DNA from: a virus
Strand: one strand, 5' to 3'
DNA: 30,224 nt
IMG/VR virus record: IMGVR_UViG_3300042469_001036
Location: 1-30,224 of that record
The position numbers were made by a program, and so were the translations under genes. The notes under the pieces are model-generated. The model saw only the letters and a program-made list of their open reading frames with translations, was not told where the DNA came from and searched no databases. Each line of letters starts with the position of its first letter. Position 1 is the first letter of the stretch. This document shows positions 1,668 through 17,244 of this stretch, piece after piece.

Positions 1668-2219
1668 TCAGAACTCGTGCATGTTACCTGTTACTGCATC
1701 ATGTATAATTATTCTTTCGATGGTTGATTTTTTTTGTTTTAATTCTTTTGCTAGTTCAGAAAATTCTTTTATATGTTCTGGTCGATCTTCCCATATTTTT
1801 AAAACATTATATTTTGGACTCATTAGTTTAATTAAATTATTTTTTTTAATTTCAAATATTGTTGATCCAACAGAACCATGTTGTCCAGAAAAAAAATAAT
1901 GATCAAAAATCATGTCATTGTATTTTAATATTTGAATTATTCTATTTTTAAAAAAATATGGTCTACCAGTCATTAGGACTACGGTGGAATTTTCATCTGC
2001 TGAATCTAATTTTTGATGATTAACAACATTGTTGACATACCAATTTTGATCTGGTTTTTCTGGAACAACAGGAGGGGACAACGATTCTTTTCGTCCCCAC
2101 CAGCCTTTAAAGGGCCATTTTTTTCCAGTTGATTTTTCATAGAGTTGCTCGCCTAATTCTTTATTAGGCGAGTGAAATAAAGTACCATCAAAATCATAAA
2201 TCATTAGACTTTTTGGCAT
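1668..2219 (-). CDS. HAD-superfamily phosphatase, Swiss-Army-Knife RNA-repair (SAK) type
   Basis: The 183-residue protein shows HAD motif I as D9-F10-D11-G-T-L-F, motif II as MTGR (T84-G85-R86), a possible motif III lysine near K125, and the acidic motif IV IWEDRPEHI (E144, D145). The combination TGR, then F-D-H/Y-F-F, then T-x-F-E-I-K, then EDR-x-x-H matches the HAD domain first described in fungal 'Swiss Army Knife' RNA-repair proteins and found in many phages. Known HAD enzymes of this class use the first aspartate as nucleophile on a phosphate ester. All catalytic positions look intact. The C-terminus is short, with no cap domain visible. It follows the nucleotidyltransferase gene by 34 bases and precedes the SprT-like gene, suggesting cotranscription. 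An RNA 2'- or 3'-phosphatase role is an inference from the family name and context. Confidence 0.72.
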   Translation of the reverse strand: MPKSLMIYDFDGTLFHSPNKELGEQLYEKSTGKKWPFKGWWGRKESLSPPVVPEKPDQNWYVNNVVNHQKLDSADENSTVVLMTGRPYFFKNRIIQILKYNDMIFDHYFFSGQHGSVGSTIFEIKKNNLIKLMSPKYNVLKIWEDRPEHIKEFSELAKELKQKKSTIERIIIHDAVTGNMHEF

Positions 2220-2253
2220 TTCCGATTCTTTCTGTTAATGTGTGAATCGAATT

Positions 2254-3723
2254 TTAACATTTATTATTTTTAATTGTATCTTGCCAACGATTCGTTAGCA
2301 AGAGTTTATTGATAGAATCAAATTCATTTCCAACTGGTTCTCTTCCTAAAGCATGAATATAAATTGGATTAATTTTTTGAACACCAAAGGCATCAATGTT
2401 ATGACTATTGAGGTCATCACCGTTGAAATTCATGAAATTATCAACTTCATGGCTATAGTTGTTGGTAACGTGCATCCACTCTTTAATTTTAGATTTTGTT
2501 AAACCAGTGTGGCTTTTTATCATATTGTAAAATTCTGATGAATCGAATTTGTTTTTACCCCACTGATAAAATTTAACCAGATAAGAAATATCATTTGCTT
2601 CTTGTTTGTTCCATCCGCCAGCAATTAGAAGATCTTTTACATCGTTTGGGTTATTTTTTCTTAGTACCCAAGCACAAGCCATCCAACGGTCAGACCTTAG
2701 ATCGGCAGGTATTTCGCTGGGATCAAATTCAATGTTTGGGAACATAAGTCCCATAAGCCCTGTTGAATGATATGTGTTTAAAAATTTCTTGGCATCAACA
2801 TCAGGATTTTCTAAGCCTTTAACAAATTCATCTTTCATTTGTTTTGGATCAATGCTGGAAAAAATTTCATTTGAATCAATTTTCTTGTTGTATTTTTCGG
2901 GGAATTTGCCTTTGCCGTAACGATTGAAATGATTGACCATTCTGAAAATGGTGAGTGGATCTTCTTCCATTCTTTCACCAAATTTTTCCCCAACAACCTT
3001 TAGTTCTCCTGATTTAAGGTGATGAGCGCCGCCAAATGGATCGACTAGATCGCTATTTTCTCCATCAGCTTTGGTCAATGGAATATACATGGCATTGATT
3101 GTTAAGTCACGATTGGAGGCATCTTCTTCAATGCTGGATGCCATTTTAGCATCTTCTGGATTAAAGTTTTTACTTTTTGGTGATTTAGATAAAGTTGAAA
3201 TACGAAAAGGTTGACTTTTGACAACAGCCAGTATTTCCATTTCTTTGCCACGCTTGTCCCAGCGGCTTGCATAGAAAATTTTTCCACTCTCTACTGTATT
3301 GGGCAACTTATCATTTTTTGGTTTATCGCCTTGTGATTTTACTTCTTTAAAGCCAGCGTTTTTAAGAATCATGCGTATTTCACTGGGAGTTGCATCTGTG
3401 ACAAGATCATAATTTTTTGGTGTTTTGCCAACAAGGTGATCTCTGACAGCACCACCAGTTAAATATAATGATTTCTTTTTTAGTTGTGGCTCAACTTCTC
3501 CCTTGTTTTTTTCAATTGTGGTGTAGCCTAAACCAACTTTATCTGAATTAACAAATGCTTTGACAATTTTAGCTAAATTAGCATGATTAGACTTATCGAT
3601 AACAAATGGTAAAAACTCATTATTTCCTTGTTTTTTTTGAAGCTTAACGTGTGAAGTTACTGTGTTAGAAGAATTTTCTTCACTTTCTTCACGAATTCTA
3701 AAATATCTGGAGAATAGGCTCAT
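2254..3723 (-). CDS. tRNA nucleotidyltransferase / poly(A) polymerase family protein (class II), motifs altered
   Basis: The 489-residue protein has the class II nucleotidyltransferase head. This comprises LTGGAVRDHLVG (GGAVRD at 90-95), then PKNYDLVTDATP (102-113), the FRIST strand near 173, NRDLTINAM (204-212), LVDPFGG (226-232) and a MEEDPLTIFRM helix (252-262). The remainder is helical, as in the neck-to-tail domains of CCA-adding enzymes and poly(A) polymerases. These enzymes add CCA to tRNA or A tails to RNA. Three signature residues differ from the usual pattern: N104 where the first Asp of DxD is expected, N204 for the first Arg of RRD, and T258 for the Arg of EDxxR. The N-terminal extension of about 85 residues and the long gap between motifs are also unusual. 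The start has a TAGGAAA SD. The family is clear. CCA versus poly(A) specificity, and activity itself, are open. Confidence 0.8.
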   Translation of the reverse strand: MSLFSRYFRIREESEENSSNTVTSHVKLQKKQGNNEFLPFVIDKSNHANLAKIVKAFVNSDKVGLGYTTIEKNKGEVEPQLKKKSLYLTGGAVRDHLVGKTPKNYDLVTDATPSEIRMILKNAGFKEVKSQGDKPKNDKLPNTVESGKIFYASRWDKRGKEMEILAVVKSQPFRISTLSKSPKSKNFNPEDAKMASSIEEDASNRDLTINAMYIPLTKADGENSDLVDPFGGAHHLKSGELKVVGEKFGERMEEDPLTIFRMVNHFNRYGKGKFPEKYNKKIDSNEIFSSIDPKQMKDEFVKGLENPDVDAKKFLNTYHSTGLMGLMFPNIEFDPSEIPADLRSDRWMACAWVLRKNNPNDVKDLLIAGGWNKQEANDISYLVKFYQWGKNKFDSSEFYNMIKSHTGLTKSKIKEWMHVTNNYSHEVDNFMNFNGDDLNSHNIDAFGVQKINPIYIHALGREPVGNEFDSINKLLLTNRWQDTIKNNKC

Positions 3724-3778
3724 ATTTATTTCCTAGCATAAGATTATACTTTATTTATCAATAGATCAGCTTTTTTAG

Positions 3779-4075
3779 TTAACTTGGTGGAGATTGTAAT
3801 TTTAAAAAATACAAAATAGTTGCACCTATAACCATTAATGCTAATTTCCACGCACTATCAAAAACTTTTTCCCAAAACCCATTCATATTATCAATTTTTA
3901 ACTTATATGATTCAAGAGACAACTTCAAATCTATCAATTCTTTTTTTAAGGCTTTGATTTCTTCAGAAATAGAATCATTGTTTCCAATTAAGTTGTTGAT
4001 ACGTTCATCATGCCTTGAAGATGTCTCAACAAGTGAGTCGATACTTTCTTGTGTTTGATTTTTAGGCGGTGACAT
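3779..4075 (-). CDS. Small coiled-coil protein with C-terminal membrane anchor
   Basis: I do not recognise this 98-residue protein with certainty. Residues about 12-64 form a polar heptad-like helix rich in Leu, Ile, Lys, Glu and Asn, predicted as a coiled coil. A Trp-containing junction (GFWEKVFDSAWK, 66-77) leads into one hydrophobic segment of about 16 residues (75-92), and the protein ends in a short polar tail. This layout resembles XhlA/hemolysin-like phage proteins, which sit in the inner membrane and can accompany a holin, but the resemblance is architectural only. It is the first gene of the leftward cassette and starts only 41 bases from the divergent gene at 4117. The SD is weak (CGGAAAA). 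Other possibilities are a membrane-tethered scaffold or a spanin-like partner, though no lysis enzyme is visible nearby. Confidence 0.55.
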   Translation of the reverse strand: MSPPKNQTQESIDSLVETSSRHDERINNLIGNNDSISEEIKALKKELIDLKLSLESYKLKIDNMNGFWEKVFDSAWKLALMVIGATILYFLKLQSPPS

Positions 4076-4116
4076 AATTTTCCGTTTCTAGTTCTTTAAA
4101 CCTATATATTCTAGCC
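4076..4116. promoter_or_regulatory. Divergent intergenic region, likely promoters for both directions
   Basis: These 41 bases separate the leftward gene ending its start at 4075 from the rightward gene at 4117, so transcription should start here or within the neighbours for at least one direction. An AT-rich CTATATATTC core is near-palindromic and could act as a minus-10 or late-promoter-like element on either strand. No convincing minus-35 box is seen. There is no good SD before the rightward ATG. The call rests on position more than on motif. Confidence 0.3.
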
Positions 4117-4638
4117 ATGAATAACTCAGAAAATATAAAAGAAAAGCCAGAAGTGGTGATTGCAGAAGAAGTAGCGAATGATATTTCGCAAAACGACGAA
4201 GACACCATTGAATCAATGATTCCTTCTATGAATTTAAGTGTTCCTGAAAATGGAGTACCCAAGGAAAACCATTTGATTTCTGATGAAAAATATTTGGAAG
4301 TAATTGATGAAATCATGACCAATATGCGAGAAGATCGAAAAGAAGTCACGAATTTCATCGATACTTTTTCTAATATGGTTATAAATGATGGCGATGCAAC
4401 AACTTCAACCAAAGAAGCCTTGGTTAATTTAATTAAAACAAAAGTTGACTTGCAAGATAAAATGCTCAAGGCAGCAGACTTAATGACAAGACTAAAACTT
4501 AAAAACACTTATGCTTATTCTGGCCCACATTTAAATGCTCTACAGCAAAATAACATAAATATTGGGACAGACAATACAAATTTTAATCGCAAAGAAATAA
4601 TTAGAGCAATCAACCACGCTAAGAAGAAAAAGGAATAA
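4117..4638 (+). CDS. Hypothetical phage protein, helical with basic C-terminus
   Basis: I do not recognise this 173-residue protein. The first 55 residues are acidic and Asn/Ser-rich, probably disordered. Residues 56-128 look alpha-helical with regularly spaced Leu, Ile and Met (for example DEIMTNMREDRKEVTNFID). The C-terminus turns polar and ends in a Lys-rich tail. There are no cysteines, signal peptide or membrane helix. It is the first gene of a rightward run: the next gene starts two bases after its stop, with an AAGGA SD lying inside its 3' end, so the two are very likely co-translated. No SD precedes its own ATG. Its place between accessory genes and the tail block would suit a structural or assembly role, but nothing in the sequence proves that. 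Confidence 0.6.
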   Translation: MNNSENIKEKPEVVIAEEVANDISQNDEDTIESMIPSMNLSVPENGVPKENHLISDEKYLEVIDEIMTNMREDRKEVTNFIDTFSNMVINDGDATTSTKEALVNLIKTKVDLQDKMLKAADLMTRLKLKNTYAYSGPHLNALQQNNINIGTDNTNFNRKEIIRAINHAKKKKE

Positions 4639-4640
4639 AA

Positions 4641-5963
4641 ATGTCAAGACACGCAATCAATTCATGGCTGGCTGAAGCTTCTGGAGATGTTGCTTCTGGT
4701 CAATCCCCAATGGGGCAACCAGATTCTCCTCCTAGTGCTGGTGGGCCACCTGCTGGCGATCCAAATGCTGCCAACCCATCAACTGAAATGACGCCTCCTG
4801 TTGCAGGCCAACAACAAAATAGTCCAGATGCTGCCAATAAATCACAAGAAATGCCAGATGTGAGTAATGATCCAGCCGCTCCTGACATGCCTGAAAATAA
4901 ACAAAATCAAGATTTTGAAACTTGGAAAAATGAATTTTTCAAAGAAAGCGTTCGTGGCGATGTAGGTAAACTAATTGAAATGATTCAAAATATTCGTGAC
5001 GCAAAACTAGAGCCATATCCACGAAAATTTGTAGAAGACAATCTTCAAATATGTTTTTTACGTCAAAATGCAAATATAGATAAGGCTTGTAAAAATATTC
5101 GCAACAATATAAAGCAAAACCTTGATCAGAACAATCCTTCCGTTAGTGTTGTCAATCATATTAACACAGCATTGCAAACTACACCTGATATGAATAATAT
5201 TTTCATAAAACTTAAAGGATTGCTTGGCATGAAAGGTGATCTACATAGAAAATATTTATGCAGCCTTTTAGGAGCCGTTCAAGTTGGAAGCGGTGGCAAC
5301 AATGAAGATTTAATTTATAACGAAAGAGATTATTCTATTCGTATTTCCACTAGATTTAACGATAAGTGGGGTAAGGTTGATATTGGTAAATGGAGCTTGC
5401 GTGAAGATGATCCAGAAAGATATTTGACTGAGCCTGAACAAAAAAGAATGGACGATGGAAGCCCAGAAGAAAAGGATGTTTTGCGTCGTCGTGTTGTAAT
5501 GGAAGCAATAGCAGAAACATTCAAAAAACGCTCGTTTATCATCAATGTCGTTGGCACAGATGGAACCATTCACACACTTGGCTGGGACATGGCGGTTAGT
5601 CTGAGAAACGCTTACGCAAACGGCAAATTAATTGTAAAAACAATTCTAGGCGATAACAGCGAAGCCATGATTGATGAAGAAGGAACAATCATTCCTTATG
5701 TTGACATAAAAATAAAATATGTCAAAGACGCAGAAGGAGGAGTCGATGATGACGGAAGACCAGCCAAAGAAGAACATGAGTTTATGGAAAGAATTGATGG
5801 AATTCTTTTTTTAACAGCACAATTCCCAATTTTAAAAGAAGCCTCTACTTCATTTGGAGGAATTGTTTTAAAAGAAATTCCATATACAGGAAACCCAAGT
5901 GATTTGAATGTTTTAATGAGATGCGTTCCATCAGCACCAGAAATTTTACTTCGCAATTGTTAA
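4641..5963 (+). CDS. Hypothetical phage protein with Pro/Gly/Asn-rich N-terminus (possible virion protein)
   Basis: This 440-residue protein has two parts. Residues 13-90 are low complexity, rich in Pro, Gly, Ala, Asn, Gln and Ser with repeated 'P-x-A-A-N' flavour, and are surely disordered. Residues 91-440 are a mixed alpha/beta globular region: a helical part, then a strand-rich part (YSIRISTRFNDKW, FIINVVGTDGTIHTLGW, PYVDIKIKYV). There is no catalytic signature I can name, and no transmembrane segment. The start follows an AAGGAAT SD in the preceding gene's end. The gene is followed by a 77-base gap. Large disordered N-termini followed by a compact domain are common in virion-associated proteins of huge phages, which is my best guess, held loosely. 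Confidence 0.6.
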   Translation: MSRHAINSWLAEASGDVASGQSPMGQPDSPPSAGGPPAGDPNAANPSTEMTPPVAGQQQNSPDAANKSQEMPDVSNDPAAPDMPENKQNQDFETWKNEFFKESVRGDVGKLIEMIQNIRDAKLEPYPRKFVEDNLQICFLRQNANIDKACKNIRNNIKQNLDQNNPSVSVVNHINTALQTTPDMNNIFIKLKGLLGMKGDLHRKYLCSLLGAVQVGSGGNNEDLIYNERDYSIRISTRFNDKWGKVDIGKWSLREDDPERYLTEPEQKRMDDGSPEEKDVLRRRVVMEAIAETFKKRSFIINVVGTDGTIHTLGWDMAVSLRNAYANGKLIVKTILGDNSEAMIDEEGTIIPYVDIKIKYVKDAEGGVDDDGRPAKEEHEFMERIDGILFLTAQFPILKEASTSFGGIVLKEIPYTGNPSDLNVLMRCVPSAPEILLRNC

Positions 5964-6040
5964 CATATTTGACTTAAAGATCGTAAATAGTAATTGATTA
6001 GTTTTACAGAAATATAAACCAAAAAGCAATTAGGGGAAAA

Positions 6041-6517
6041 ATGAAAGTTTTTCTTGAATTTATTGATAGAAAACAGCGGGAAGCAAAAAGACAATTGAAA
6101 ATTGTCGAAAAATCTCTTCGCAAAGGTAAATTGCACGTTTATTCACACATAGAAGACGATGATCCACATCTTTTTGTCAAAGCGAATAATAAAAAGTTAA
6201 GTTTTGAAGGTATAAGAATTTATCATATTGGCGATGGGATTGCATATAGAGTGCAAAAACTTGAAAAAACAGAGCCTTATGGTAAATCATATGCGCTCAA
6301 TGTCGAAGAAATGTACAATGACTTCATGAGCGAAAACATGGATGAAAAAGAAGCCGCCGAAAAAGTTATGGAGGCAATGGTAAATGAAATAAAGAAATTT
6401 TTCCACCATAGCGCACAAGCAGAAGATAAATTGAGAACTGGACAGAAAGATGGAGTAGGAATGATTGTAAAAACAGGCGGATCTGATTACAGCAGCACTG
6501 TTTTAAATAGAATCTAA
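6041..6517 (+). CDS. Hypothetical phage protein
   Basis: I do not recognise this 158-residue protein. It begins with an amphipathic, strongly basic helix (residues 8-29), followed by beta strands (KLHVYSHIE, HLFVKANNKK, IRIYHIGDGIAYRVQKLEK). An acidic helical section follows (NVEEMYNDFMSENMDEKEAAEKV), then a flexible Gly/Ser-containing tail. No membrane segment or catalytic motif is visible. The AGGGG SD is well placed before the ATG. In the upstream gap, TATAAACC at 6013-6020 is a loose variant of a T4-like late box, but nothing more supports a promoter there. Its stop codon overlaps the SD of the Pmp3-like gene, so the two are probably translationally coupled and share the terminator at 6734. 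Confidence 0.6.
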   Translation: MKVFLEFIDRKQREAKRQLKIVEKSLRKGKLHVYSHIEDDDPHLFVKANNKKLSFEGIRIYHIGDGIAYRVQKLEKTEPYGKSYALNVEEMYNDFMSENMDEKEAAEKVMEAMVNEIKKFFHHSAQAEDKLRTGQKDGVGMIVKTGGSDYSSTVLNRI

Positions 6518-6525
6518 GGAGCAAT

Positions 6526-6717
6526 GTGGAAGACAAAGTAAAATATCAAAATGAAACTGATGACACAATAGCTTTAATTATGGCTATTTTTCTTCCGCCA
6601 CTTGGCGTTGTAATTAAAAGAGGAATAGATATTCAACTTGTTATAAACATTGTTTTGACTATGTTTGGATGGTTCCCGGGAATAATTCATGCTCTTTATG
6701 TTATTTTAAAAAAATAA
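6526..6717 (+). CDS. YqaE/Pmp3 family small membrane protein
   Basis: The 63-residue protein matches the YqaE/Pmp3 (proteolipid membrane potential modulator) family. A first hydrophobic helix (about 14-31) contains the hallmark LPPLGVVIKRG, and a second (about 37-60) ends in GWFPGIIHALYVILKK. These are the two conserved segments of the family at the expected spacing. Members are tiny inner- or plasma-membrane proteins linked to salt, cold or membrane-potential stress; their molecular activity is unsettled. The start is GTG at 6526, preceded by AAGGAG at 6516-6521. An ATG at 6524 is out of frame and stops after five codons. It is the last gene before a strong terminator. A polar N-terminus of about 13 residues is longer than in many members. 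Its role in a phage is unknown; membrane conditioning or a holin-like helper are guesses. Confidence 0.85.
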   Translation: MEDKVKYQNETDDTIALIMAIFLPPLGVVIKRGIDIQLVINIVLTMFGWFPGIIHALYVILKK

Positions 6718-6733
6718 TTTGCCCAATTTCACT

Positions 6734-6764
6734 AAAAGCCCTGCATTAATGCAGGGCTTTTTTT
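6734..6764 (+). terminator. Rho-independent terminator
   Basis: A perfect 12-bp stem, AAAAGCCCTGCA / TGCAGGGCTTTT, closes a TTAA loop and runs into seven T residues. It lies 16 bases after the Pmp3-like stop codon. The A-run on the left arm means it could also stop leftward transcription. It separates the gene group 4117-6717 from the tail block. Confidence 0.93.
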
Positions 6765-6791
6765 ATTTAAACATTTTAAATACATAAAATT

Positions 6792-7277
6792 ATGGCAGTA
6801 CCTTTTATTGACGCAATGTTGCCGGGAGATAAGGCATCACCAAATAAACCAATAGGTCGTGGAAGTCTTATTACATTTAATTATATTTTCCACAAATCTG
6901 GACACGATCCCTATCCAGTAGTATTGGTAACAGATATTTGGCCTAACTATATTCGTGGTATAAACTTAAATTATTTAACATTCCCAACTATCAAAAAAAT
7001 GGTATTTCCAGCACCAAATCAAACAGTTTGCGATAACCCATCATTCACATATCAATATATAAAAGGTAGTGAATATATAGTTTCAGCATTCCGTCAGTAT
7101 AAGCGCAATGGAATTCAGCGATTAAAAAAACTAGACTGCGCTTTTATAGTAAAAGCTCTTGGACTTTCTCGGTCTTTTGATCCAAATGAGATAGAAGCAA
7201 TTCGTAGATCAGTTCGAGAGCAAATTCGCCAGCTAGCTAATGTAAGAGCAGCACCCACTGGTGAAATGACGGTATAA
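6792..7277 (+). CDS. Conserved phage structural-type protein upstream of tape measure
   Basis: This 161-residue protein has a beta-rich N-terminal half with RGSLITFNYIF (23-33), PYPVVLVTDIWP (40-51) and RGINLNYLTF (55-64), followed by helices with many Arg and Lys. A strand of the form 'P-V/L-V-L' followed by 'G-x-N-L-x-Y-L' recurs in small virion proteins of T4-like cyanophages and their relatives, as I recall. Its location just before the tape measure supports a tail or head-tail role, but I cannot name the T4 equivalent. No SD is seen before the ATG, and only 27 bases separate it from the preceding terminator, so the transcript may have an unusual or very short leader. The next in-frame Met (residue 9) has no SD either. 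Confidence 0.6.
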   Translation: MAVPFIDAMLPGDKASPNKPIGRGSLITFNYIFHKSGHDPYPVVLVTDIWPNYIRGINLNYLTFPTIKKMVFPAPNQTVCDNPSFTYQYIKGSEYIVSAFRQYKRNGIQRLKKLDCAFIVKALGLSRSFDPNEIEAIRRSVREQIRQLANVRAAPTGEMTV

Positions 7278-7280
7278 ATA
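7273..7280 (+). promoter_or_regulatory. TATAAATA box, candidate T4-like late promoter (distal)
   Basis: An exact TATAAATA, the T4 late-promoter core, overlaps the stop codon of the gene ending at 7277. A transcript from here would carry the hairpin at 7291-7317 in its leader before the tape-measure gene. The DNA is AT-rich enough to give such octamers by chance, so the call is weak. Confidence 0.25.
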
Positions 7281-7291
7281 AATTATCTTTT

Positions 7292-7316
7292 TATTCGATA
7301 AGTGTTTTATCGAATA
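7292..7316 (+). other. Intergenic hairpin upstream of the tape-measure gene
   Basis: Arms TATTCGATAA and TTATCGAATA (10 bp, perfect) enclose a GTGTT loop. No T-run follows, so it is not a classic intrinsic terminator. It could stabilise or mark the 5' end of a transcript from the distal TATAAATA box, or be an RNA processing site. Confidence 0.5.
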
Positions 7317-7327
7317 CTAAATACTCA

Positions 7328-7335
7328 TATAAATA
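7328..7335 (+). promoter_or_regulatory. TATAAATA box, candidate T4-like late promoter for tape measure
   Basis: An exact TATAAATA followed by AAG lies 26 bases before the tape-measure ATG. In T4, transcription starts five or six bases after this core, which would leave a leader of about 20 bases containing the TTTAGG SD. Position and exact match favour it. Chance occurrence in AT-rich DNA and lack of a visible gp55-like sigma gene in the window argue for caution. Confidence 0.4.
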
Positions 7336-7361
7336 AAGACAATTATTTAATTTAGGCGTTC

Positions 7362-10300
7362 ATGGATCAACCCATATTAGACAATCTTAATCGTAATGTT
7401 GGAAGCGTTATAACAAGCCTTCAAGCATTAAAAAGTGCATTAGATACTGCTTCTACTGGCACAGCACAACCTGCTGGCGGTGGAAACGTAAACATGGATG
7501 ACTTAAAAGACATACTAGGAAAATTCGTCAAAGATTTTAAAGAAGTATCAGAAGAGCAAAAAAAATATACAAAATCTGTCGTCAAAGCAATGAAAGATGT
7601 TATAAAAGCTCGTAGCAGTGGCGGCGGTGGCGGCGGTGGTGGCGGTGGTGGTGGTGGTGGTGGTGGTGGTGGTGGTGGTGGTGGTAAAAAATCCAAAGCA
7701 GACCAAGAAGAAATTAAAAATCTTCAAAGTAAATTGAGCTTAGAATCTCAACTTATCGATTTTGCTGAAAAAAATAGTTTTTATGGTGAAAATAGTGTCG
7801 ATACTTTAACTGAAGCATTAAAAATAACTGTTGCTCAACATAAAGTAAGAGCCAATGCTTTAGTCAGCATACAAGGAATTAGTGACGTTGAAAAACAAGC
7901 ATTGAAAACAGAATATAAGCGTTTAGAAGCTATTAAGAATGGCCAATATGCTTATTATAACATGGTTAACCAGTTAAGAGAAATTACTGGTTACATGAAT
8001 ACATTTGAAAGTGGCCTTGGTCTAAAAACCATGGAAACACTGACAAGCGGAATTGTTCAAGAGGAAATGAAATTTACTCAAGAAGTTCGCAAAGCAGCTT
8101 ATGAAACAGCAGGACTAACCAAAAATAGTCAATCTCTTCAAAGAACATATGAAGAAATTGGCACTTCTGTTAAAACAACTGGCTTTGATAGAACTAAATT
8201 TCAACAATCTTATTTAAAATCTTTAAAGAGTGGTGTTAAAGATTTAAAGCAAGCTGTATCATTAACAACAACTCAACTTAACACTGAAAGCCAATTGGGT
8301 CTTGAAGCAGGATCATTACAAGAAACATTCCAATCATTTGCCCAAACAGGAAGAATGACTAATGGTCAACTTGCTGATATGGGTCGTGGTATGCGTGATG
8401 TAGCTAAAAATACTGGATTAACAGGCGAAGCATTAAAAGGAGCAGTTGATTCAAGTCGTGAAATAATTAATCAACTCAGAAATGCAGCAAGCCTAACAAG
8501 CACTGCTGCTAAAAATGTTATAGAAATGAATGCAAATGCCAAAAAACTTGGTGTTGATCAACAGATGTTGCAATTGCAAGGTGGATTGACAAGCGGCGCT
8601 AAATTACTGATGGACTCATCTTCACAAACTCAGTCAATGATATTTTTAGCAGCAAGTAAAGTTGGAAAAGTAAACGAAGCAATGAACGGAACTCTTCTTT
8701 CAACAAAAGAAGGAATTAAATCTCTTGGCACTGGATTGCAAGGAATTCTTAAAGATTTCGGTGTCGGAAGCCTTGAAGAAATTGATCAACTGTCAGCAGA
8801 AGCAAAAACAAGATTAAATATTCAACTAAAATCCGTCGTTGGAATGGAATTAGGAGAGTTCCGTTCTTTGATAGAATCTGTAAATGAATCAGGAAAAGGT
8901 CTTGGAGACAGACTTGGCGATATCAATAAGAAAATGAAAGATAATATAACCGCTGATGAAAAAAGAGCTTTAGTTGAACAAAAGCGCCAGTTGAAAGCTA
9001 GCAAGCAACTTGAAATATTGACAGCACTAGATGAAGCAGCAAAAGGCGCAAAAGATATGAATGGTGCCTTAGCTAAATTTGGCGAAAGAAGAAAAGATTT
9101 TGAAGGCGATTTACAAGCATTAGGATCAAGCTGGCAGAATGAAACACAAGTTGCTAAAGATGCAATCAAGGGAGCAATTGAAAGCGTTAACAAAGGGCTG
9201 AAAGAGGCTGGTAAATCAGAACTTAAAATAGATTCTTCAGAAATAGAAAAGGCTGTTAAAGACCCATCTATGTTAAGGGAATTGACTGCTAAAATAAGCA
9301 AGGGTGAACAACAATTAGCCACTGCACAGAAAGCACAACTTGATCCTGTAACAGAGACAAATCAAAAACTAACTGAAATAAATGACACTCTAAGAAATAT
9401 GTCTCAAAATGTTATATCAAAAATAATGAGCAGCATTTTTGGAAAGTTATTGGTTGTTGGAGCAGTAATTTCTGGAATTGCAGCTTCAGTTATTGGTCTT
9501 GGAATTCAATTAATTGCGATTAAGAAGACATTGCAAAAAATTGCCTTTGGAGATATGAGCAAAGGAGAATCTGAACTAAGTCTTTTAGATAACCTAAAAT
9601 CTGTTTTCACTAGCAAAAAACCAATTGAAGGCGTTAATATTGGTAAAACAGAAACGGAAAAACTAACAGGTCAAACATCTCCAACTAGTACTGTTACATC
9701 AGAAGCGCAAAAGAAAACAAAAGCAGAAACGCAACCGCAAACTCAAACTGTTGCACCTAAACCAGAATCAGTAAACGTAGAAGAAAAAATAAGCAAGTCA
9801 TCAGAAATTCTTACAAAAATTTTAACTACTTTAGATACAATTAAAGATTGTATTTGTAAACCTTCTACACCATTGACTCAACCACCAGCAGCAGCACCTG
9901 ATCCAATGGCTGCATTGACACAAGCAAAACCAGCAGCAGCACCTGATCCAATGGCTGCATTGACACAAGCAAAACCAGCAGAGCCAGAACCTGTGCAAGT
10001 TGCTGAAAAAGCTGCTGGAAAAGCAGCTAAAAAGAAAAAGCTAACTCCAGAAGAAATTGCAGCACTTAAAGCTGAAGGTCAGGCAAGAAAAGAAGCCGCC
10101 AAAGCTAAAGGACTTGATCCAGCAGTTGAAAAATCCATCAGAAGAAATCAAGAAAAGAATATAAAGATGGATACGAAATTAAACAATATAGAGAGAAAAG
10201 AACAAATAAAAGAAATAAGAAGAGGCAAAAAAGACGATAGAATATTAAGATTAGAAGAGCAAGCTGTAAAACATGAAAGGAAAATGCAGAAAAAAGAAAC

Positions 10301-13300
10301 AGCTATGCCTAAAGAAGTAGATGCTCCTAAAGAAGCAGCTACGCCTTGTCCTAGTGTTCCAGATGATGGTTGCCTCGATCCAAAAGCAATGGCGGCTAGT
10401 GGCGGAAGCATGGTTAAAACAGCAGCCGCTGTTGCTATTTTAGCCGCTGGAGCTTTGGTGTTGGGAACTGCATTGATATTCCTTGGCAGTAAAGTTCTTA
10501 AAGCACTTGGTCTTGATTTAAACAAAATAATGGAAACTGCTGCTGCAATCGCTGCGGTCATCGGCGTTGCTGTAGCCATTTCAGTTGCTGGCGCTCTTGC
10601 AATGAATTGCTTGTCTGAAATTGAACCTGAAATTTCAAAAATACAAAAAAATCTTGGCAAGGCCGTAAAAACAGGAGCAATTCTTGTTGTCATGGGAACT
10701 ATTTTGGTCATTCTTGGCGCAGCAATGATTTACTTGGCACGGATGGTTCTAAAGGCACTCAATATGGATGCCTCTACAGCAATTGAAGTTGCCACTACAG
10801 TTGGAGCAATTGCTGGCGTTGTAGGAACAGTTGCCTACGCAACTGTTAAGTTTTTAGAAGCACTTGAAGAACTTGACGCAAACCCAATGTGGAAAAAAAT
10901 TAAAACAAATTATCCAGCAATAGTAAAGAATATTGCCTTGGGAGGATTAGCACTTTTAGTCATATCAGGCGCAATAGTTATCCTTGGCGCAGCATTGATA
11001 AAATTTTCTCAATATATATTAGGAGCATTAGGAGTTGATGCAGCTACTGCTTTTAAAGTTGGATCAACAATAGCCGCAATTATGGTCGCTGTGGGATTAA
11101 TTGCACTTGCCACAATTGGATCAATTGGTGGATTACAAGCTCTCGGACAATTAACTGCTTACCTTGTAACACCAGTACCGGGTCCATTTCCTATTCCTGC
11201 TGGTGCCTTGATGCTACTTGGCGCTGACGTTTTGCTTAAACTTGGTCTACCAATTCTTTTGCTTGCTACAGCACTTATGTTTTTTGGCAAAATAATTCTT
11301 GGGGCAGCTGGAATTAATGCAGCTACAGCAATGAAAATTGGAATGACAATTTCTGCCATATTTTTAGCAGTTGGTCTAATTTCTTTGGCTTTAGGGTTTG
11401 CTATGGAAGGCCTAACGTATCTAGGAGCAATAGCAACTATAGTTTTAACTAGTCCTCTGGTAGTATTAATGGAACTAGGAGCATGGGCATTATTGCTTGG
11501 AGGAGGAGGAATTCTTCTTCTTGGAGTCGCAATAATGTGGCTAGCTAAAACTCTTTTAGCTATTTCGGGATTAAATTTAGCTTCAATTGCAATGACAACA
11601 TTGACCGTATATGCATTATTTGCTGGAGTTGCATTAATATCGATTGCTTTGGGTGCTGCGATGGAAGGCCTAATGTATCTAGGAGCAATAGCAGGTATAC
11701 TTATACTTGCAATTCCTTTAATGGAGATTGGCGCAAGAGCTTTATTATTTTTCACACCAGCAATGCTTCTTCTTGCATCTGCAATAATATTGATGGGAAT
11801 GTTAGTATCGAAATTTATTGTATCGCCAAAACTAGCTGGTCAAACTGCTTACGCTATTGCAACTATTCTTGGCGCTGCTGCACTTATTGCTGCCGCTGTT
11901 GTCGGATTCGCAACTATCGGAATAGCTTTAGGACTTATTGGACTTCTTTCTCCACTTATTGCAGGTCTTATGTTGCCTGCCGCATGGGGTCTTGGCGTAT
12001 TGGCTTTCCCAATGATTGAATTTGTACAAGCTGCTGTAAGAATAGCCAAAGATTTGGCAGGAGCAATGCCATTAAACAAAGTAAATGAATGTGTTGGCGC
12101 TATAGCATCAATTCTTGGTGCTGCTCTGTTAATAGCAGGTATAATACTTGGATTTGCTACAATTGGCACAGGCTTGGGACTTATTGGACTTCTTTCTCCA
12201 CTTATTGCAGGTCTTATGTTGCCTGCTGCATGGGGTCTTGGCGTATTGGCTTTCCCAATGATTGAATTTACACAAGCTGCTGCCAATGTAGCCAAAGATT
12301 TGGCAAAAGCTTTGCCTCCAGCACAAGTGGAAGAAGTAGTTAATGCTGTAACAACAATTTTGAATGGAGCAGCAAAGATAGGCGAATCAGTATCTGGAAT
12401 GATTCCTTCAATGCAATATATGTCAATGATAGGACTTATTGCGCCAGTCATTGCTTGGTCAATGAGTGGTGCTGGTGGAGCACTTATCACACTTTCTAAA
12501 CCACTTGCTTTTTTTGCAATTGCCGCACTATATGTTGCGATTTTACTTAATTCTATAATGAAACCCAAAGATGCAGAAGAAGCTGCAAATGCTGTGACAA
12601 CAATTCTGAATGGAGCGGCTAGTATTTCGGATTCCCTGATGAAAATGGTTCCTAAACTTACGGCAATTGGATCAACTGCACTCATCATGTTTATGATTGC
12701 TCCTATTATGCGTCTTGCTGCTTCAGCACTTTATATCATGTCATGGCCTGTTGTTGAATATGCTAAAGCAATTGTTAGTTTTGCAATGTCATTGGCAAGT
12801 GTAGTTCATCCCGATAAGGCTAAATCTTTATCGCAAGGTGTTGCTTCTATGCTTAGTGCTATAGGAGAAGTGTCGGATGAGTTCCAAAAAATTAGAAATA
12901 AAATTGTCAGTATAGGAATGGGAGAAGGAGTTTTCAAACTTTTCCTTTTTACTTTGCCTGCACTTCGCATGGGAGTCTTTGCTTTCAAAGCAATGAAAAA
13001 ACCAATAACTGATTTTATAATTGAAATTGTAAACTTCAGTACTTCCTTGTCAACTATTGTAACTCCAGCTGTTGCTAAAACTGCCACAAAGACAATAAAT
13101 GCTACATCTGAAATAATTGCAAAAGTATCAGATATTATGAAGAATTTGAATGAAAAGATTGTTCCCATGACAAAAGCTGGATGGTTTACAAAATCTCCTG
13201 TTGACATATTGATAGAAGCAAAAAATAAACTAGCAACTTTCTTCCCAGCAATGTTTGGTTTAATAAAATCAATTGTTCTTCAAGTTAACGCTAGCTTTAC

Positions 13301-16300
13301 CGAAACGCAAGGCATTAAATCTGCTTTGAAAATATTGACCTTAATTGGCATGGTTGTAAATGAAGTTTCTAACGCAATTAAATCTCTTTCAGAAAAGGTT
13401 GCTCCATTTGTTAAAAAGGGATGGTGGAGTGGTAAATCGGCATCAGATGAGATAATTGCTGCCAAGACTGACATTAAAAATTTAATATTGGCAATTGTAG
13501 ATTTGATGGGAACTGGAATTGTTGGTCCAATTGCAAAAATGGACAATATTGAAGAAATGAAAAAGGCTGCAAAAATAATGGCCGTAGTAGCCGTTCTCAT
13601 GGAATTGACTGGTAAGGCAATTAAGGGGATGGCAGAAGTTGTAGGGACAATGAAATCGGGTTATATTAAAAAAGGTTCTGCTGACATAATAAAAGAAAAT
13701 AAAGATACATTTAAAGAATTTTTTGGAGAAGTTACAAAATTTATCGGTGAAGGAATTGTTGATTCTATTTCTATTATTCCTGATAGTTCAAGTTTAAGCA
13801 AGGCATCATCAACTATGATTGATGTTGCTAGGCTTCTTTGTGCTACAGGATCTACAATCAAGTCTCTTGCTGAAGTTATGAAATTAATGGACCCAGTTTC
13901 ACTTTTCGATAGAAAATCACCAATGCAAAAAATTGTTGAAAAAACTGATAAATTTACAGATTGGTTTGGTAAAATTGGAAAATTTGTCAAAGAAGGAATA
14001 GTAGATCCAACAAATTTAATTTTCACTGACTCAAAAGACATTAATTCTGCTTCGATAATTATAGTTGCTATGGCTAAGATTGCAGCATCAATTGTTCCGA
14101 TGATTAAGAATCTTGCTGAAGCCGTTGCTTTAGCCACAGAAGGTAAAGGAATTTTTGATGCGGCTCCAATGAAGAAAATTGTTGATAGTAAAGATAAATT
14201 TACATATTGGTTTGAGATAATTGGCGTATTTGTGCGTGATGGTATAGTTAAACCAACTTTGAGCGTCATGAAAGATATAGATATAGGAAAAGCCACTCAA
14301 ATAATTGTTTCGATGGCAACCATTGCCGCACAAATTGTTCCAATGATAAAAAATCTTGCTTCTGCTGTTGGATTAATGAGTGAAGGAGGCGTTGACAACA
14401 TTGATACTGAATGTCCTGTCGATAGAATAATCTCATCAAAAGATAAGTTTACTGATTTTTTCACACAAGTAGCAATGTTTATGCGTGATGGAATTGTCAA
14501 TCCAATTTTGAATGAGTTGAAAGATTTAGACGGAATTCAAAAAGCAGCAAGAATAATGAATGCAATGAATCAATTAATTATAATGATTCCACAAGTTATC
14601 AATAATTTTGTTACAGGACTAATTCCTTTGGTGGAAAACAGTATACAAGACATAGCCAAAGACACACCTGAAGAAAAAATTAAGGCAAACTCTGAAAAGC
14701 TTAAAGCATTTTTCACAACAACAGCAAGATTTATGCGTGAGGGAATTGTCAATCCAATTTTAAAGGAATTGGATGATTTGGACAGTATTCAAAGGGCTGC
14801 AAGAATTCTTAATGCTATGAATCAATTGTTGATAAATGTTACAGGTGTAATTAGAAGTTTGGTTTCATTGTTTGGTCCGCTTGATCCTAATCAGTGTCTT
14901 AAAGAGGCACCTATTCAAATGATTTCGAGAATGGCACCTCAATTTACCTTGTGGTTTACAAATGTTGCTTTGTTGATGAGAAATGGCATTTTATATCCAA
15001 TTTTGTTACTATTCCCATCTGAAGAAGAAATGAAAGAGGCTGTTGCTCAGTTGGCAAGAATGATTGAGTTGGTTAAATTGTTACCTGCATTTTTAATGCA
15101 ATTATCCAATTCTATGGATATGTTTTCTGGAGTTGTAGGTGCCTTCAACATAGGACTAAAAGTTACATTTTTTGCAAGTGTATTTACTTATTTGGCTGAT
15201 ACTTTGAAATATGGAGTTATTAATCCAATATTTGAAATGCCTACTGTTGACGAATTAGATGATGCTATTGATCGCATGAGTGGAATGGCAGATGTAACTG
15301 CGACTGCATCTGGTTTAATGAAATTCTTGTTTGACGTGTTTAATGATTTCAGTAATTCTATTGGCTTATATACAATATTTTTTGGTGCAAGAAATACAAA
15401 TTATTTTGCGGACACATTTACTTATTTGGCTGATACTTTGAAATATGGAGTTATTGGTCCAATATTGTATATGCCTACTGTTGATCAATTAGATGATGCT
15501 ATTGATCGCATGAATGGAATGGCTAATGTAACTGAGACTGCATCTGGTTTAATGAAATTCTTGTTTGACGTGTTTAGTGATTTCAGTAATTCTATTGGCT
15601 TATATACAATATTTTTTGGTGCAAAAAATACAAATTATTTTGCGGACACATTTACTTATTTGGCTAATGTTTTCATGGATGGAATTATCGTACCGATTAG
15701 AAAATTACCTAGTGTTGATGAATTAAGAGATGCTGTTAATAGAATAGAAGGAATGTCGAATGTTTGTAGTGCGGCTTCTTACGCTATGGGTAAAATGTTC
15801 CGAATATTTGGCGAATTTTCAGAAAAGACAAGCTTTTTTGGAATGATTTTTGGTAGATTTGATCAATACTTCTTCAATAAGACATTTACAACTATGGCTG
15901 ACAGTTTGAAGTACGGTATAATTCAACCAATTCTAAAAAACATGCCTGCTGTATCTGAATTGAATTTAGTTGTTGATAAGTTAAAGGGATTGGTTAATAT
16001 TCTTGATGAAGTTCAAAAAATCATGAATAAAATGCAGGAAACTGTAAGTAATATTGGAAATATTGGTTTTGATTTTAATGCAATTAAAGAAATGCCTATT
16101 GATAAACTTTTGCTTCTTGCAAATCATGCAAAGAAGGGTCTTGATATAGCACAGAGTGTAGAAACAAGTGTATCAAAAACAAGTGTGAAAGAAGAGCCTT
16201 CTGTTGCGGCAACTAAAAAGGCAAACGCAGAGATTTCTGCAATTGTTGAAAATAATTCAAGTAATAAAAATATTACATCTGTAACAGCAACTCCAACATC

Positions 16301-16637
16301 TAAAATTGGAGGAGAATCTTCTATTCAGAGCAAGATAGCTGCCAAGAAGGCATCTGAAGAACCTCAAGCTGCTAAGATTACTGGTAAAGAGTTGACTGAA
16401 ATTTCTGAATCTTCAAAAGAACAAACTGAATTAACAGGAGAGCTTGTTGAGTTATTCAAGAAATTCTTAGACTTAATGAAGCCAACATCTGGTGGTGGAG
16501 GATCTGGCGCAGATACTCCTTCAACTGGACTCAATAGAATCAAGGGTAAGCCTCCGAAAATTTACAAAGCAACTAGTGGATTATTGTCTAAGGGACCACA
16601 AAGACAAGTTGTTAACATGAGTCCATTGCCATCTTAA
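7362..16637 (+). CDS. Giant tail tape-measure protein
   Basis: This 3,091-residue protein sets tail length in the family and is threaded inside the tail tube before ejection. In order it contains a short helical start and a polyglycine tract (87-108). A long coiled-coil-like region (110-680) and a hydrophobic segment (about 689-721) follow. Next is a Thr/Pro/Lys-rich linker (745-1005) with a duplicated 15-residue unit. After it come strongly hydrophobic helical repeats (about 1017-1560), then amphipathic repeats with a recurring F-x-x-x-G-I-V-x-P-I core (about 2030-2870), and a polar Gly-rich tail. Size, helicity, hydrophobic centre and position just before baseplate genes all identify it. 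No peptidase or transglycosylase domain is seen. The SD is modest (TTTAGG). No frameshifted chaperone pair, as in many siphoviruses, is visible upstream. At about 1.5 angstrom per residue it would measure roughly 460 nm. Confidence 0.9.
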   Translation: MDQPILDNLNRNVGSVITSLQALKSALDTASTGTAQPAGGGNVNMDDLKDILGKFVKDFKEVSEEQKKYTKSVVKAMKDVIKARSSGGGGGGGGGGGGGGGGGGGGGGKKSKADQEEIKNLQSKLSLESQLIDFAEKNSFYGENSVDTLTEALKITVAQHKVRANALVSIQGISDVEKQALKTEYKRLEAIKNGQYAYYNMVNQLREITGYMNTFESGLGLKTMETLTSGIVQEEMKFTQEVRKAAYETAGLTKNSQSLQRTYEEIGTSVKTTGFDRTKFQQSYLKSLKSGVKDLKQAVSLTTTQLNTESQLGLEAGSLQETFQSFAQTGRMTNGQLADMGRGMRDVAKNTGLTGEALKGAVDSSREIINQLRNAASLTSTAAKNVIEMNANAKKLGVDQQMLQLQGGLTSGAKLLMDSSSQTQSMIFLAASKVGKVNEAMNGTLLSTKEGIKSLGTGLQGILKDFGVGSLEEIDQLSAEAKTRLNIQLKSVVGMELGEFRSLIESVNESGKGLGDRLGDINKKMKDNITADEKRALVEQKRQLKASKQLEILTALDEAAKGAKDMNGALAKFGERRKDFEGDLQALGSSWQNETQVAKDAIKGAIESVNKGLKEAGKSELKIDSSEIEKAVKDPSMLRELTAKISKGEQQLATAQKAQLDPVTETNQKLTEINDTLRNMSQNVISKIMSSIFGKLLVVGAVISGIAASVIGLGIQLIAIKKTLQKIAFGDMSKGESELSLLDNLKSVFTSKKPIEGVNIGKTETEKLTGQTSPTSTVTSEAQKKTKAETQPQTQTVAPKPESVNVEEKISKSSEILTKILTTLDTIKDCICKPSTPLTQPPAAAPDPMAALTQAKPAAAPDPMAALTQAKPAEPEPVQVAEKAAGKAAKKKKLTPEEIAALKAEGQARKEAAKAKGLDPAVEKSIRRNQEKNIKMDTKLNNIERKEQIKEIRRGKKDDRILRLEEQAVKHERKMQKKETAMPKEVDAPKEAATPCPSVPDDGCLDPKAMAASGGSMVKTAAAVAILAAGALVLGTALIFLGSKVLKALGLDLNKIMETAAAIAAVIGVAVAISVAGALAMNCLSEIEPEISKIQKNLGKAVKTGAILVVMGTILVILGAAMIYLARMVLKALNMDASTAIEVATTVGAIAGVVGTVAYATVKFLEALEELDANPMWKKIKTNYPAIVKNIALGGLALLVISGAIVILGAALIKFSQYILGALGVDAATAFKVGSTIAAIMVAVGLIALATIGSIGGLQALGQLTAYLVTPVPGPFPIPAGALMLLGADVLLKLGLPILLLATALMFFGKIILGAAGINAATAMKIGMTISAIFLAVGLISLALGFAMEGLTYLGAIATIVLTSPLVVLMELGAWALLLGGGGILLLGVAIMWLAKTLLAISGLNLASIAMTTLTVYALFAGVALISIALGAAMEGLMYLGAIAGILILAIPLMEIGARALLFFTPAMLLLASAIILMGMLVSKFIVSPKLAGQTAYAIATILGAAALIAAAVVGFATIGIALGLIGLLSPLIAGLMLPAAWGLGVLAFPMIEFVQAAVRIAKDLAGAMPLNKVNECVGAIASILGAALLIAGIILGFATIGTGLGLIGLLSPLIAGLMLPAAWGLGVLAFPMIEFTQAAANVAKDLAKALPPAQVEEVVNAVTTILNGAAKIGESVSGMIPSMQYMSMIGLIAPVIAWSMSGAGGALITLSKPLAFFAIAALYVAILLNSIMKPKDAEEAANAVTTILNGAASISDSLMKMVPKLTAIGSTALIMFMIAPIMRLAASALYIMSWPVVEYAKAIVSFAMSLASVVHPDKAKSLSQGVASMLSAIGEVSDEFQKIRNKIVSIGMGEGVFKLFLFTLPALRMGVFAFKAMKKPITDFIIEIVNFSTSLSTIVTPAVAKTATKTINATSEIIAKVSDIMKNLNEKIVPMTKAGWFTKSPVDILIEAKNKLATFFPAMFGLIKSIVLQVNASFTETQGIKSALKILTLIGMVVNEVSNAIKSLSEKVAPFVKKGWWSGKSASDEIIAAKTDIKNLILAIVDLMGTGIVGPIAKMDNIEEMKKAAKIMAVVAVLMELTGKAIKGMAEVVGTMKSGYIKKGSADIIKENKDTFKEFFGEVTKFIGEGIVDSISIIPDSSSLSKASSTMIDVARLLCATGSTIKSLAEVMKLMDPVSLFDRKSPMQKIVEKTDKFTDWFGKIGKFVKEGIVDPTNLIFTDSKDINSASIIIVAMAKIAASIVPMIKNLAEAVALATEGKGIFDAAPMKKIVDSKDKFTYWFEIIGVFVRDGIVKPTLSVMKDIDIGKATQIIVSMATIAAQIVPMIKNLASAVGLMSEGGVDNIDTECPVDRIISSKDKFTDFFTQVAMFMRDGIVNPILNELKDLDGIQKAARIMNAMNQLIIMIPQVINNFVTGLIPLVENSIQDIAKDTPEEKIKANSEKLKAFFTTTARFMREGIVNPILKELDDLDSIQRAARILNAMNQLLINVTGVIRSLVSLFGPLDPNQCLKEAPIQMISRMAPQFTLWFTNVALLMRNGILYPILLLFPSEEEMKEAVAQLARMIELVKLLPAFLMQLSNSMDMFSGVVGAFNIGLKVTFFASVFTYLADTLKYGVINPIFEMPTVDELDDAIDRMSGMADVTATASGLMKFLFDVFNDFSNSIGLYTIFFGARNTNYFADTFTYLADTLKYGVIGPILYMPTVDQLDDAIDRMNGMANVTETASGLMKFLFDVFSDFSNSIGLYTIFFGAKNTNYFADTFTYLANVFMDGIIVPIRKLPSVDELRDAVNRIEGMSNVCSAASYAMGKMFRIFGEFSEKTSFFGMIFGRFDQYFFNKTFTTMADSLKYGIIQPILKNMPAVSELNLVVDKLKGLVNILDEVQKIMNKMQETVSNIGNIGFDFNAIKEMPIDKLLLLANHAKKGLDIAQSVETSVSKTSVKEEPSVAATKKANAEISAIVENNSSNKNITSVTATPTSKIGGESSIQSKIAAKKASEEPQAAKITGKELTEISESSKEQTELTGELVELFKKFLDLMKPTSGGGGSGADTPSTGLNRIKGKPPKIYKATSGLLSKGPQRQVVNMSPLPS
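7620..7685 (+). repeat. Trinucleotide microsatellite encoding 22 glycines
   Basis: Eight mixed GGC/GGT codons are followed by fourteen consecutive GGT codons. All are glycine codons in the tape-measure frame (residues 87-108). Slippage would change length by whole residues without breaking the frame. It stands out in AT-rich DNA. Confidence 0.95.
9885..9974 (+). repeat. Two exact 45-bp tandem copies in the tape-measure linker
   Basis: The unit encodes a 15-residue Pro/Ala-rich peptide (PAAAPDPMAALTQAK). Copies at 9885-9929 and 9930-9974 are identical in DNA, followed by six bases of a third. This points to a recent slippage or unequal-recombination event in a flexible linker. Confidence 0.95.
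11931..12269 (+). repeat. Near-identical 93-bp direct repeats, 246 bp apart, in the tape-measure hydrophobic region
   Basis: Positions 11931-12023 and 12177-12269 differ at one base by eye (GCC versus GCT, both Ala). They encode a Gly/Leu/Pro-rich hydrophobic segment ending in FPMIEF. The 246-bp offset (82 residues) matches the period of the later repeat array, so they look like two units of one repeated element, homogenised recently. Confidence 0.9.
13515..15929 (+). repeat. Array of about eleven ~80-residue units in the tape measure
   Basis: The core Gly-Ile/Val-Ile/Val-x-Pro recurs with its Gly codon at 13515, 13752, 13995, 14241, 14490, 14742, 14985, 15213, 15447, 15681 and 15915. The spacing is 228-252 bp, always a multiple of three. 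Each core follows an aromatic helix of the type W/F-F-x-x-x-x-x-F and precedes a helix rich in Ala, Ile and Met. The second unit lacks the proline. The feature spans first to last core, so flanking parts of the end units lie outside. Confidence 0.88.
15183..15650 (+). repeat. Two 234-bp tandem units, about 94% identical
   Basis: Units 15183-15416 and 15417-15650 differ at about 13 positions by my count. A third, more diverged unit starts at 15651 with the same TTTACTTATTTGGCT opening. The near-identity at DNA level in just two members of the larger array indicates recent duplication or gene conversion. Confidence 0.92.
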
Positions 16638-16658
16638 TTAATTTAAAAGGAATAATAA

Positions 16659-17231
16659 ATGAACGCTACCATACCTGATGGTCAAATGAATGTACTGGAA
16701 AAATGTTACATTGATATTCCATCATTATCAATTACACTAAAGATGCAATCTTTGCCAGATATTAGTGATGGAAAAGGCGCACAATATGGAGATGAAACAT
16801 CAATCGGTAGAAGTACTCCTTTCAAAACTTATCAGAATTCTGATAATAGGACAATTGGATGGACTGCTCATTATATGGTAACTCAAGAAAAAGATATACC
16901 ATTGCTTTTTAGTTACATAAGAGCAGTTCAGGCGGCAGTTTATCCATTTGACTCAAAAGATTCAAATTTAGGCGGCAATGTTGCTGGTAATGGAGGTGCT
17001 CCATATGCTCCTCCTCCTGTTTGTAAGCTTCAGTGTGGCGATCTTTTATCAAAAGTAGGACCAATTAATGCTGTGTTAAAATCATATAGTATTAAATTCG
17101 ACCCTTCTGTTCCTTGGGATGAAAAAACTTATTTGCCTTATAAATTTGATTTAGACTTAAGTTTTGATGTTATTTATAATCAATCGGATTTGCCGGGTGC
17201 AAATAGAATTTTTAATGATAGTAGTCTTTAA
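16659..17231 (+). CDS. Baseplate / tail-tube-initiator-like protein (T4 gp48/gp54 type)
   Basis: The 190-residue protein is beta-rich. Its C-terminal section has PPPVCKLQCGDLLSKVGPI (118-136), then strands around VPWDEKTYLPYKFDLDLSFDV. The combination of a 'PP-x-C/V-x-L' strand, 'V-P-W-D' and a late alternating strand is typical of tube-fold proteins that cap the baseplate hub and start tube polymerisation, such as T4 gp48 and gp54. Its position immediately after the tape measure and before the gp53/LysM-like gene fits that job. A Gly/Asn-rich loop at 104-116 interrupts the fold. The start follows AAAAGGAA. Alternatives are a tube-like baseplate protein of the gp19 family or an unrelated hub accessory. 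The specific T4 equivalent is not certain. Confidence 0.5.
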   Translation: MNATIPDGQMNVLEKCYIDIPSLSITLKMQSLPDISDGKGAQYGDETSIGRSTPFKTYQNSDNRTIGWTAHYMVTQEKDIPLLFSYIRAVQAAVYPFDSKDSNLGGNVAGNGGAPYAPPPVCKLQCGDLLSKVGPINAVLKSYSIKFDPSVPWDEKTYLPYKFDLDLSFDVIYNQSDLPGANRIFNDSSL

Positions 17232-17244
17232 TTATCGAGGAAAT

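Follow-up and report, generated by a model that had tools for sequence, protein, structure and literature searches.

Introduction

CCA-adding enzymes occur almost everywhere in life and show very little variation at their catalytic residues. Proteins that keep a nucleotidyltransferase fold without catalysis are found in eukaryotes, in other branches of the superfamily (e.g., MiD51, NF45/NF90 and Utp22); to our knowledge, these do not include any phage protein of the class II CCA type. A literature search for inactive or pseudo CCA or nucleotidyltransferase proteins of phages found no such protein in the portions of the papers that it covered.

The metal of class II enzymes is bound by three carboxylates, e.g., Asp31, Asp33 and Glu74 in AaL, an A-adding enzyme, whose base in turn pairs with one Asp and one Arg of the protein (PMC3925840). 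An E. coli CCA enzyme with the DxD motif changed to AxA does not complement (PMC8563995). Surveys of huge and jumbo phages list CCA-adding enzymes among the translation and RNA-repair genes, and the parts of these surveys consulted do not mention inactive forms (PMC7162821, PMC7824862). In phage T4, a 10-residue N-terminal peptide directs internal proteins into the head; residues 4 and 7 of this peptide count most for targeting, processing depends mainly on residues 8 and 10, and the cleavage by gp21 follows Glu (PMC9026906).

The phage protein described here resembles the class II CCA-adding enzymes (PF01743; PDB 4x4w, 6qxn and 1miv) in its whole fold from head to tail and in its GG..RD loop, second Asp of DxD, R205-D206 and E254-D255. 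It differs from them by an N-terminal extension of ~85 residues and by replacement of the first Asp of DxD, the third carboxylate, and the Arg residues of ATFR, RRD (the first) and EDxxR. Its nearest canonical relatives are the jumbo-phage CCA-adding enzymes (phrog_2244). Among these the copy of the 595-kb phage LR756511, which at 40% identity comes closest within the phage collection, shares its neighbours and N-terminal tag but is fully canonical, with D, E, RRD and EDxxR all kept; many nearer relatives came from scans of IMG/VR. The T4 internal head proteins (ipIII, ipI and Alt) are similar in having aromatic residues at positions 4 and 7 and an [LI]xE site near residues 10-12. By contrast, the body of the protein has a CCA-enzyme fold, and its packaging is predicted here from sequence.

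Results

The window (the whole stretch of DNA analysed, a 30-kb viral fragment of 30,224 nucleotides) contains an open reading frame at 2254-3723 on the minus strand that translates to 489 amino acids. The protein was found to match the PolyA_pol head domain of Pfam (PF01743, E 7.2e-23) and the tRNA nucleotidyltransferase family of PHROGs (phrog_2244, E 4e-30). An AlphaFold2 model based on 25 aligned sequences (pLDDT 82, pTM 0.75) displayed the PF01743 head domain within the head-neck-body-tail arrangement of class II enzymes. The best PDB match to this model was the human mitochondrial CCA-adding enzyme 4x4w (Z 25.4, rmsd 6.0 over 354 residues), and all 29 Foldseek matches in the PDB with E < 0.001 were CCA-adding enzymes, poly(A) polymerase or related tRNA-processing enzymes. 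A canonical relative (L019) was modelled from its single sequence and, at pLDDT 40, was set aside.

The initial annotation of this DNA had read three signature residues as replaced (N104, N204 and T258) and D106, D206, E254 and D255 as retained. Translation agreed at all seven positions and revealed R205 to be retained as well. The number of replaced signature positions was, however, more than three (REPLACEMENTS), as alignment with relatives added R174, S179, N264 and Q295. Asn replaces the first Asp of DxD at residue 104 (3412-3414, minus strand, as for all codons given here), such that the motif reads N104-Y-D106, and Asn likewise replaces the first Arg of RRD at residue 204 (3112-3114). 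In place of EDxxR the protein has EDPLT, with Thr for Arg at residue 258 (2950-2952). Arg occupies the position of the third catalytic carboxylate, the Glu of EIATFR, at residue 174 (3202-3204), although E163 is nearby and could stand in, and Ser substitutes for the Arg of ATFR at residue 179 (3187-3189). Two further Arg residues are replaced by N264 and Q295. The GG..RD loop, D106, R205-D206 and E254-D255 are kept. Judged by spacing and motif, residue 174 would be the equivalent of Glu74, and residues 255 and 258 of Asp149 and Arg152.

Ordinary relatives served as a control for how variable these positions are. D104, D106, E174, R179, R204 and R258 were kept in 64 of 64 distinct ordinary rows (80 loci), a figure that may overstate conservation, as the scan used canonical peptide patterns that doubly substituted proteins could escape. 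All of the positions replaced in the window protein, including 264 and 295, were conserved in the 64 ordinary relatives, and no fewer than 19 of the 20 reference rows kept them.

The replacements were then followed among close homologues. The DNA of the gene was identical in two longer IMG/VR contigs of 61 and 82 kb, and thus the substitutions did not arise from miscalled bases in a single assembly. They were common to a clade of 26 distinct viral rows (42-100% identical), all of which were without an intact DxD and without the three Arg residues at 179, 204 and 258. A mutation of a single clone, which the initial annotation had named as the outcome that would undo its reading, was excluded on these grounds, as was a sequencing error. 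Within a narrower set of 23 clade rows, residue 104 was Asn in 22 rows and Gly in one, residue 179 Ser in 21 and Thr in two, residue 204 Asn in all 23, and residue 258 Thr in 17, Ile in three and Val in three. The position of the third carboxylate was filled by unrelated residues, with any of eight (R, P, N, E, I, S, D or Y) at 174. By contrast to these replacements, D106, R205, D206 and D255 were invariant in the 23 rows. The wider row set was more varied: one member (L243) had Asn at both Asp positions of DxD, another (L223) retained the first Asp with the second replaced, and residue 204 was Gly, Ser or Tyr in five (L222, L227, L230, L236 and L243). The second Asp of DxD was Asn in L223, L232 and L233, Gln in L241 and Glu in L244.

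When the scan pattern allowed either Asn or Asp at 104, Asn was detected only in the clade of the window protein. One of the alignments comprised 47 rows, 42 of them outside the clade; residue 104 was unscorable in one row (L047), which is split over two frames. A single scan of bacterial genome contigs found no relatives.

Phylogenetic analysis was performed with IQ-TREE on 52 rows from which the nine signature columns and, beforehand, four near-copies (L215, L218, L228 and L231) had been removed; the label all-lost was given to L223, and the label partial to L241 and L244. By this approach, the 26 rows without an intact DxD and without Arg 179, 204 and 258 fell on one side of a branch with 100/100 support, and one of the 11 outgroup rows fell on the other side from the rest. 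The same clade was recovered by FastTree with another set that included 23 substituted rows (support 0.91-0.92). In an earlier FastTree analysis rooted on one outgroup row, canonical rows were placed inside the smallest group that held all substituted rows. Two pairs of rows were placed outside the 26-row clade by IQ-TREE: L232 and L233, in which the second Asp is Asn and the other signature residues are canonical, and L241 and L244, which have lost DxD and two of the Arg residues but kept R258. DxD was found to change three times on this tree, with the starred branches forcing three changes for the canonical label, and was lost independently in two lineages besides the main clade. All of the losses fell in the subfamily that has a T4 capsid-targeting-like N-terminus. 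The loss in the main clade is best explained by a single ancestor in which the metal-site and nucleotide-selecting residues would already have disappeared.

L232 and L233 are members of the canonical sister group that lack only the second Asp; this separate and probably recent loss makes them a good natural control.

Selection on the gene was estimated from pairwise Nei-Gojobori comparisons. The dN/dS ratio was 0.038 for L087-L088 (dS 0.19), 0.091 for L074-L077 (dS 0.31), 0.045 for L074-L075 (dS 0.97), 0.18 for the window protein and L013 (dS 1.28) and 0.068 for L085-L089 (dS 1.46). Two further pairs were near saturation (L013-L014, 0.10 at dS 2.4; window protein and L071, 0.12 at dS 2.8). Synonymous sites were saturated in the pairs left unused (window protein and L014, L079-L081, L003-L019, L018-L019 and L074-L078), and the identical or near-identical pairs L014-L016, L072-L073, L075-L076 and L079-L080 gave no ratio. 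Reading frames were intact in the clade rows examined. Ratios of 0.04-0.18 reveal that the gene is not decaying, and a pseudogene was ruled out. With domain limits set by our own estimate, mean identity within the clade was 0.70 in the N-terminal extension, 0.66 in the head, 0.41 in the neck, 0.52 in the body and 0.44 in the tail, compared to 0.80, 0.84, 0.72, 0.75 and 0.61, respectively, in the canonical sister rows. Thus, the base-selecting neck was the domain relaxed most.

The one candidate for a relocated carboxylate is residue 163 (3235-3237, minus strand), a clade-specific Glu at a position where canonical proteins have Val. Glu was present in 18 of 19 clade rows, with Val or Thr in others, and Ala or Ser was found in L223, L244 and L214. 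E163 lies on strand 161-168, which adjoins strand 171-177, and could face the site and partly replace the third carboxylate. Filling of the metal site by other carboxylates, the second outcome held by the initial annotation to count against its reading, was accordingly excluded only in part.

The window protein begins with MSLFSRYFRIREE, and its N-terminal 12 residues (3688-3723, minus strand) form a capsid-targeting-like peptide with aromatic residues at positions 4 and 7 (F4 and Y7) and a cleavage site like that of T4 gp21 (I10-x-E12); the corresponding N-terminus of T4 ipIII is MKTYQEFIAE. A tag pattern that was written after seeing the family, and was partly tuned on it, was present in 37 of 40 subfamily rows, whereas all 12 short canonical relatives lacked it. 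A more stringent T4-derived pattern, which picks up T4 ipIII, was found at the first Met of 11 of 71 open reading frames of the window phage (counted on 74 kb of its 82-kb contig) compared to 1 of 412 internal Met residues (p 3.6e-9). The same pattern gave 6 of 43 frames versus 1 of 246 internal Met in G006 and 2 of 32 versus 0 of 109 in the stretch of LR756511 analysed (p 0.05), and was weak in G018 (4 of 535 versus 4 of 1770, p 0.09). A looser pattern gave 15 of 71 versus 0 of 418 in the window phage and 17 of 535 versus 5 of 1826 in G018. One of the tagged genes in the window phage encodes an ADP-ribosyltransferase (PF18760, E 1e-18) and is thereby reminiscent of T4 Alt. A prohead protease of the T4-type S77 family (PF03420) was detected in 11 of 18 distinct related records; none was found in the 82-kb record of the window phage, which is itself incomplete.

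About a dozen genes, the one for the ADP-ribosyltransferase included, lie in an array at 3609-18825 of the 82-kb contig (L063); they have T4-capsid-targeting-like N-termini (e.g., MISFKQFLE and MNFKQWLILSE) and are candidates for injected proteins. In the window, a polynucleotide-kinase-like P-loop protein (28340-29062, plus strand) has the tag-like N-terminus MSKFLNWIKNKDAILYE.

The gene is flanked on the minus strand by three syntenic genes. These encode a HAD phosphatase (1668-2219; PF10307, E 1.2e-15) that belongs to the Swiss-Army-Knife RNA-repair type and keeps its DxDGT motif, a SprT-like protein with an intact HExxH (1308-1652; 7e-5, below the Pfam cut-off) and a 98-residue protein with a coiled coil and a hydrophobic tail (3779-4075). 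A 440-residue protein without family assignment is encoded on the plus strand (4641-5963). Among 22 loci, the 440-residue protein was beside the gene in all 22, the coiled-coil protein in 19, the SprT-like protein with HExxH in 18 and the HAD protein with DxD in 14. Thus, the neighbours keep their catalytic motifs whereas the nucleotidyltransferase does not. Homologues of a DNA end protector and of baseplate proteins were encoded in the same window. The HAD protein is tagged in several relatives (L053, L059 and L003) and untagged in the window (region 1668-2260, minus strand), where a short stretch upstream of it in another frame may be a tag remnant. The first half of a 3091-residue open reading frame (7362-16637, plus strand) gave no clear PHROG match.

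A second PF01743 gene was detected in 8 of 40 records that hold a DxD-less copy (7, 18 and 15 records from three scans, near-copies included), a lower bound, as the records are probably fragments. All eight second copies were canonical at DxD, RRD and EDxxR; one has Asp as the third carboxylate. In one alignment, the second gene of G008 had Asp at 174. In G008 and G036 (L055 and L282), a compact CCA-like protein with Asp as third carboxylate, in a frame of ~240-260 codons, was present besides the long copy. By contrast, the 533-kb record G018 was found to have the substituted gene and no second copy; none of the 42 tRNA genes in the 400 kb of it that were read encoded CCA.

The tail after the discriminator was CT in 39 of 42 tRNA genes of G018 (L098-L117), 45 of 51 of LR756511 (L283-L302) and 11 of 12 of G028 (L303-L318 and L092). 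For the tRNA genes near the 15 best matches each (L319-L348), the tail was CAA in 46 of 53 of LR745206 and CCA in 17 of 22 of Atu_ph07. The tail of these huge phages, which is fixed and non-CCA, seems to be characteristic of the lineage, and some route must exist by which it becomes CCA.

Discussion

The explanation that best accounts for these results, with a probability of about 0.6, is that the window protein is a maintained, dead CCA-enzyme paralogue that is probably packed in the phage head, injected, and acts by binding. The modelled fold, the fixed loss of signature residues, the selection on the gene and the repetition of the loss only in the tagged subfamily are the basis of this explanation. 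The ancestor of the protein would be a class II tRNA CCA-adding enzyme; the ancestor of the clade would have lost the metal-site and nucleotide-selecting residues, and purifying selection would keep the gene. Based on its motifs, the protein very probably performs no catalysis, although the retention of D106, R205, D206 and D255 in the 23 rows speaks against a dead enzyme, as does E163, the strongest structural objection. The T4-type head-targeting peptide suggests that packaging in the head is fairly likely; the peptide would send the protein to the head, the prohead protease would trim it, and injection with the DNA would deliver it. Against this count the partial tuning of the tag pattern on the family, its weak signal in G018 and the lack of a protease in the incomplete 82-kb record. 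Together, the lineage-wide loss of catalytic residues, the selection that maintains the gene and the tag make it most likely that the protein works by binding and not by catalysis. On the most economical account, the tagged subfamily would already have served in binding, either during delivery or after it, such that catalysis could be lost; the host enzyme or a second copy in the phage would then carry out the canonical reaction. The fold, the GG..RD loop, D106 and R205-D206, all of them retained, would mediate the binding together with the head domain, which is conserved. As to the ligand, our best guess, a tentative one, is the acceptor end of tRNA or another RNA; the lower identity within the clade of the tRNA-binding body and tail compared to the head does not favour tRNA.

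Of the three possibilities raised by the initial annotation, an inactive protein is strongly favoured by the 26-row clade and by the member without both Asp residues of DxD, whereas altered base choice and action on another substrate are weakened, as both need an intact metal site. A decoy, or a protein that acts on host RNA, is conceivable.

The protein could instead be an internal structural protein of the head (core), with the fold serving as scaffold or filler in the capsid and having no role with RNA or nucleotides. The head-targeting-like N-terminus, the linkage to the 440-residue neighbour in every locus, the DNA end protector and baseplate homologues, and a base-selecting neck that is conserved less than the head are all consistent with such a role. 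A mere filler would have no need of the GG..RD loop, D106, R205-D206 and D255, which are invariant in 23 rows, nor does this role agree with RNA-repair-type HAD and SprT-like neighbours that have intact motifs, and we find it unlikely. An anti-defence sponge or decoy, that is, an injected protein that binds a signalling nucleotide or that shields or mimics the target of host defences that attack tRNA, is rather doubtful: many phage nucleotidyltransferases perform ordinary tRNA repair, according to the parts of one survey consulted (PMC7824862), even though an ADP-ribosyltransferase like T4 Alt is among the probably packed proteins of the window phage and conservation is highest in the head and the N-terminal extension.

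An active nucleotidyltransferase with changed chemistry would require a remodelled metal site, built from D106, E163 and a further group, together with either a changed preference for the base or a new substrate. That the N104, S179 and N204 replacements are near-fixed and not random, that E163 is clade-specific, and that D106, R205, D206 and D255 are retained would all be expected of such an enzyme. This reading is improbable, however, given that L243 is without either Asp of DxD, that the second Asp varies in L223, L232, L233, L241 and L244, that residue 174 can be any of eight and E163 is Ala or Ser in three rows, and that Arg is gone at 179, 204 and 258 alike. A decaying gene without function, to which the loss of at least five catalytic positions might point, is highly improbable in view of the low dN/dS ratios, the intact frames and the shared and old nature of the losses.

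The dead, binding paralogue may be extended to a more specific and speculative scheme, for which we see only a small chance. Huge T4-like phages would inject a premade pseudo-CCA enzyme that, during the first minutes of infection, caps the 3' ends of tRNAs or acts as their chaperone, whether the tRNAs belong to the host or are the non-CCA tRNAs that the phage itself encodes. Translation would in this manner be shielded from tRNA-attacking defences without chemistry, and this role would have made catalysis dispensable and so allowed its loss on at least three occasions.

A fold that is under strong selection while its catalytic residues have been dropped three times has a second use, which is probably non-catalytic. 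Inactive proteins can be present among the 'tRNA nucleotidyltransferase' annotations of huge phages, such as those in the portions consulted of two surveys (PMC7162821, PMC7824862). Judging by the head-targeting-like tag, huge phages may bring tRNA-related proteins into the host along with their DNA, and this would make an early takeover of host translation directly testable.
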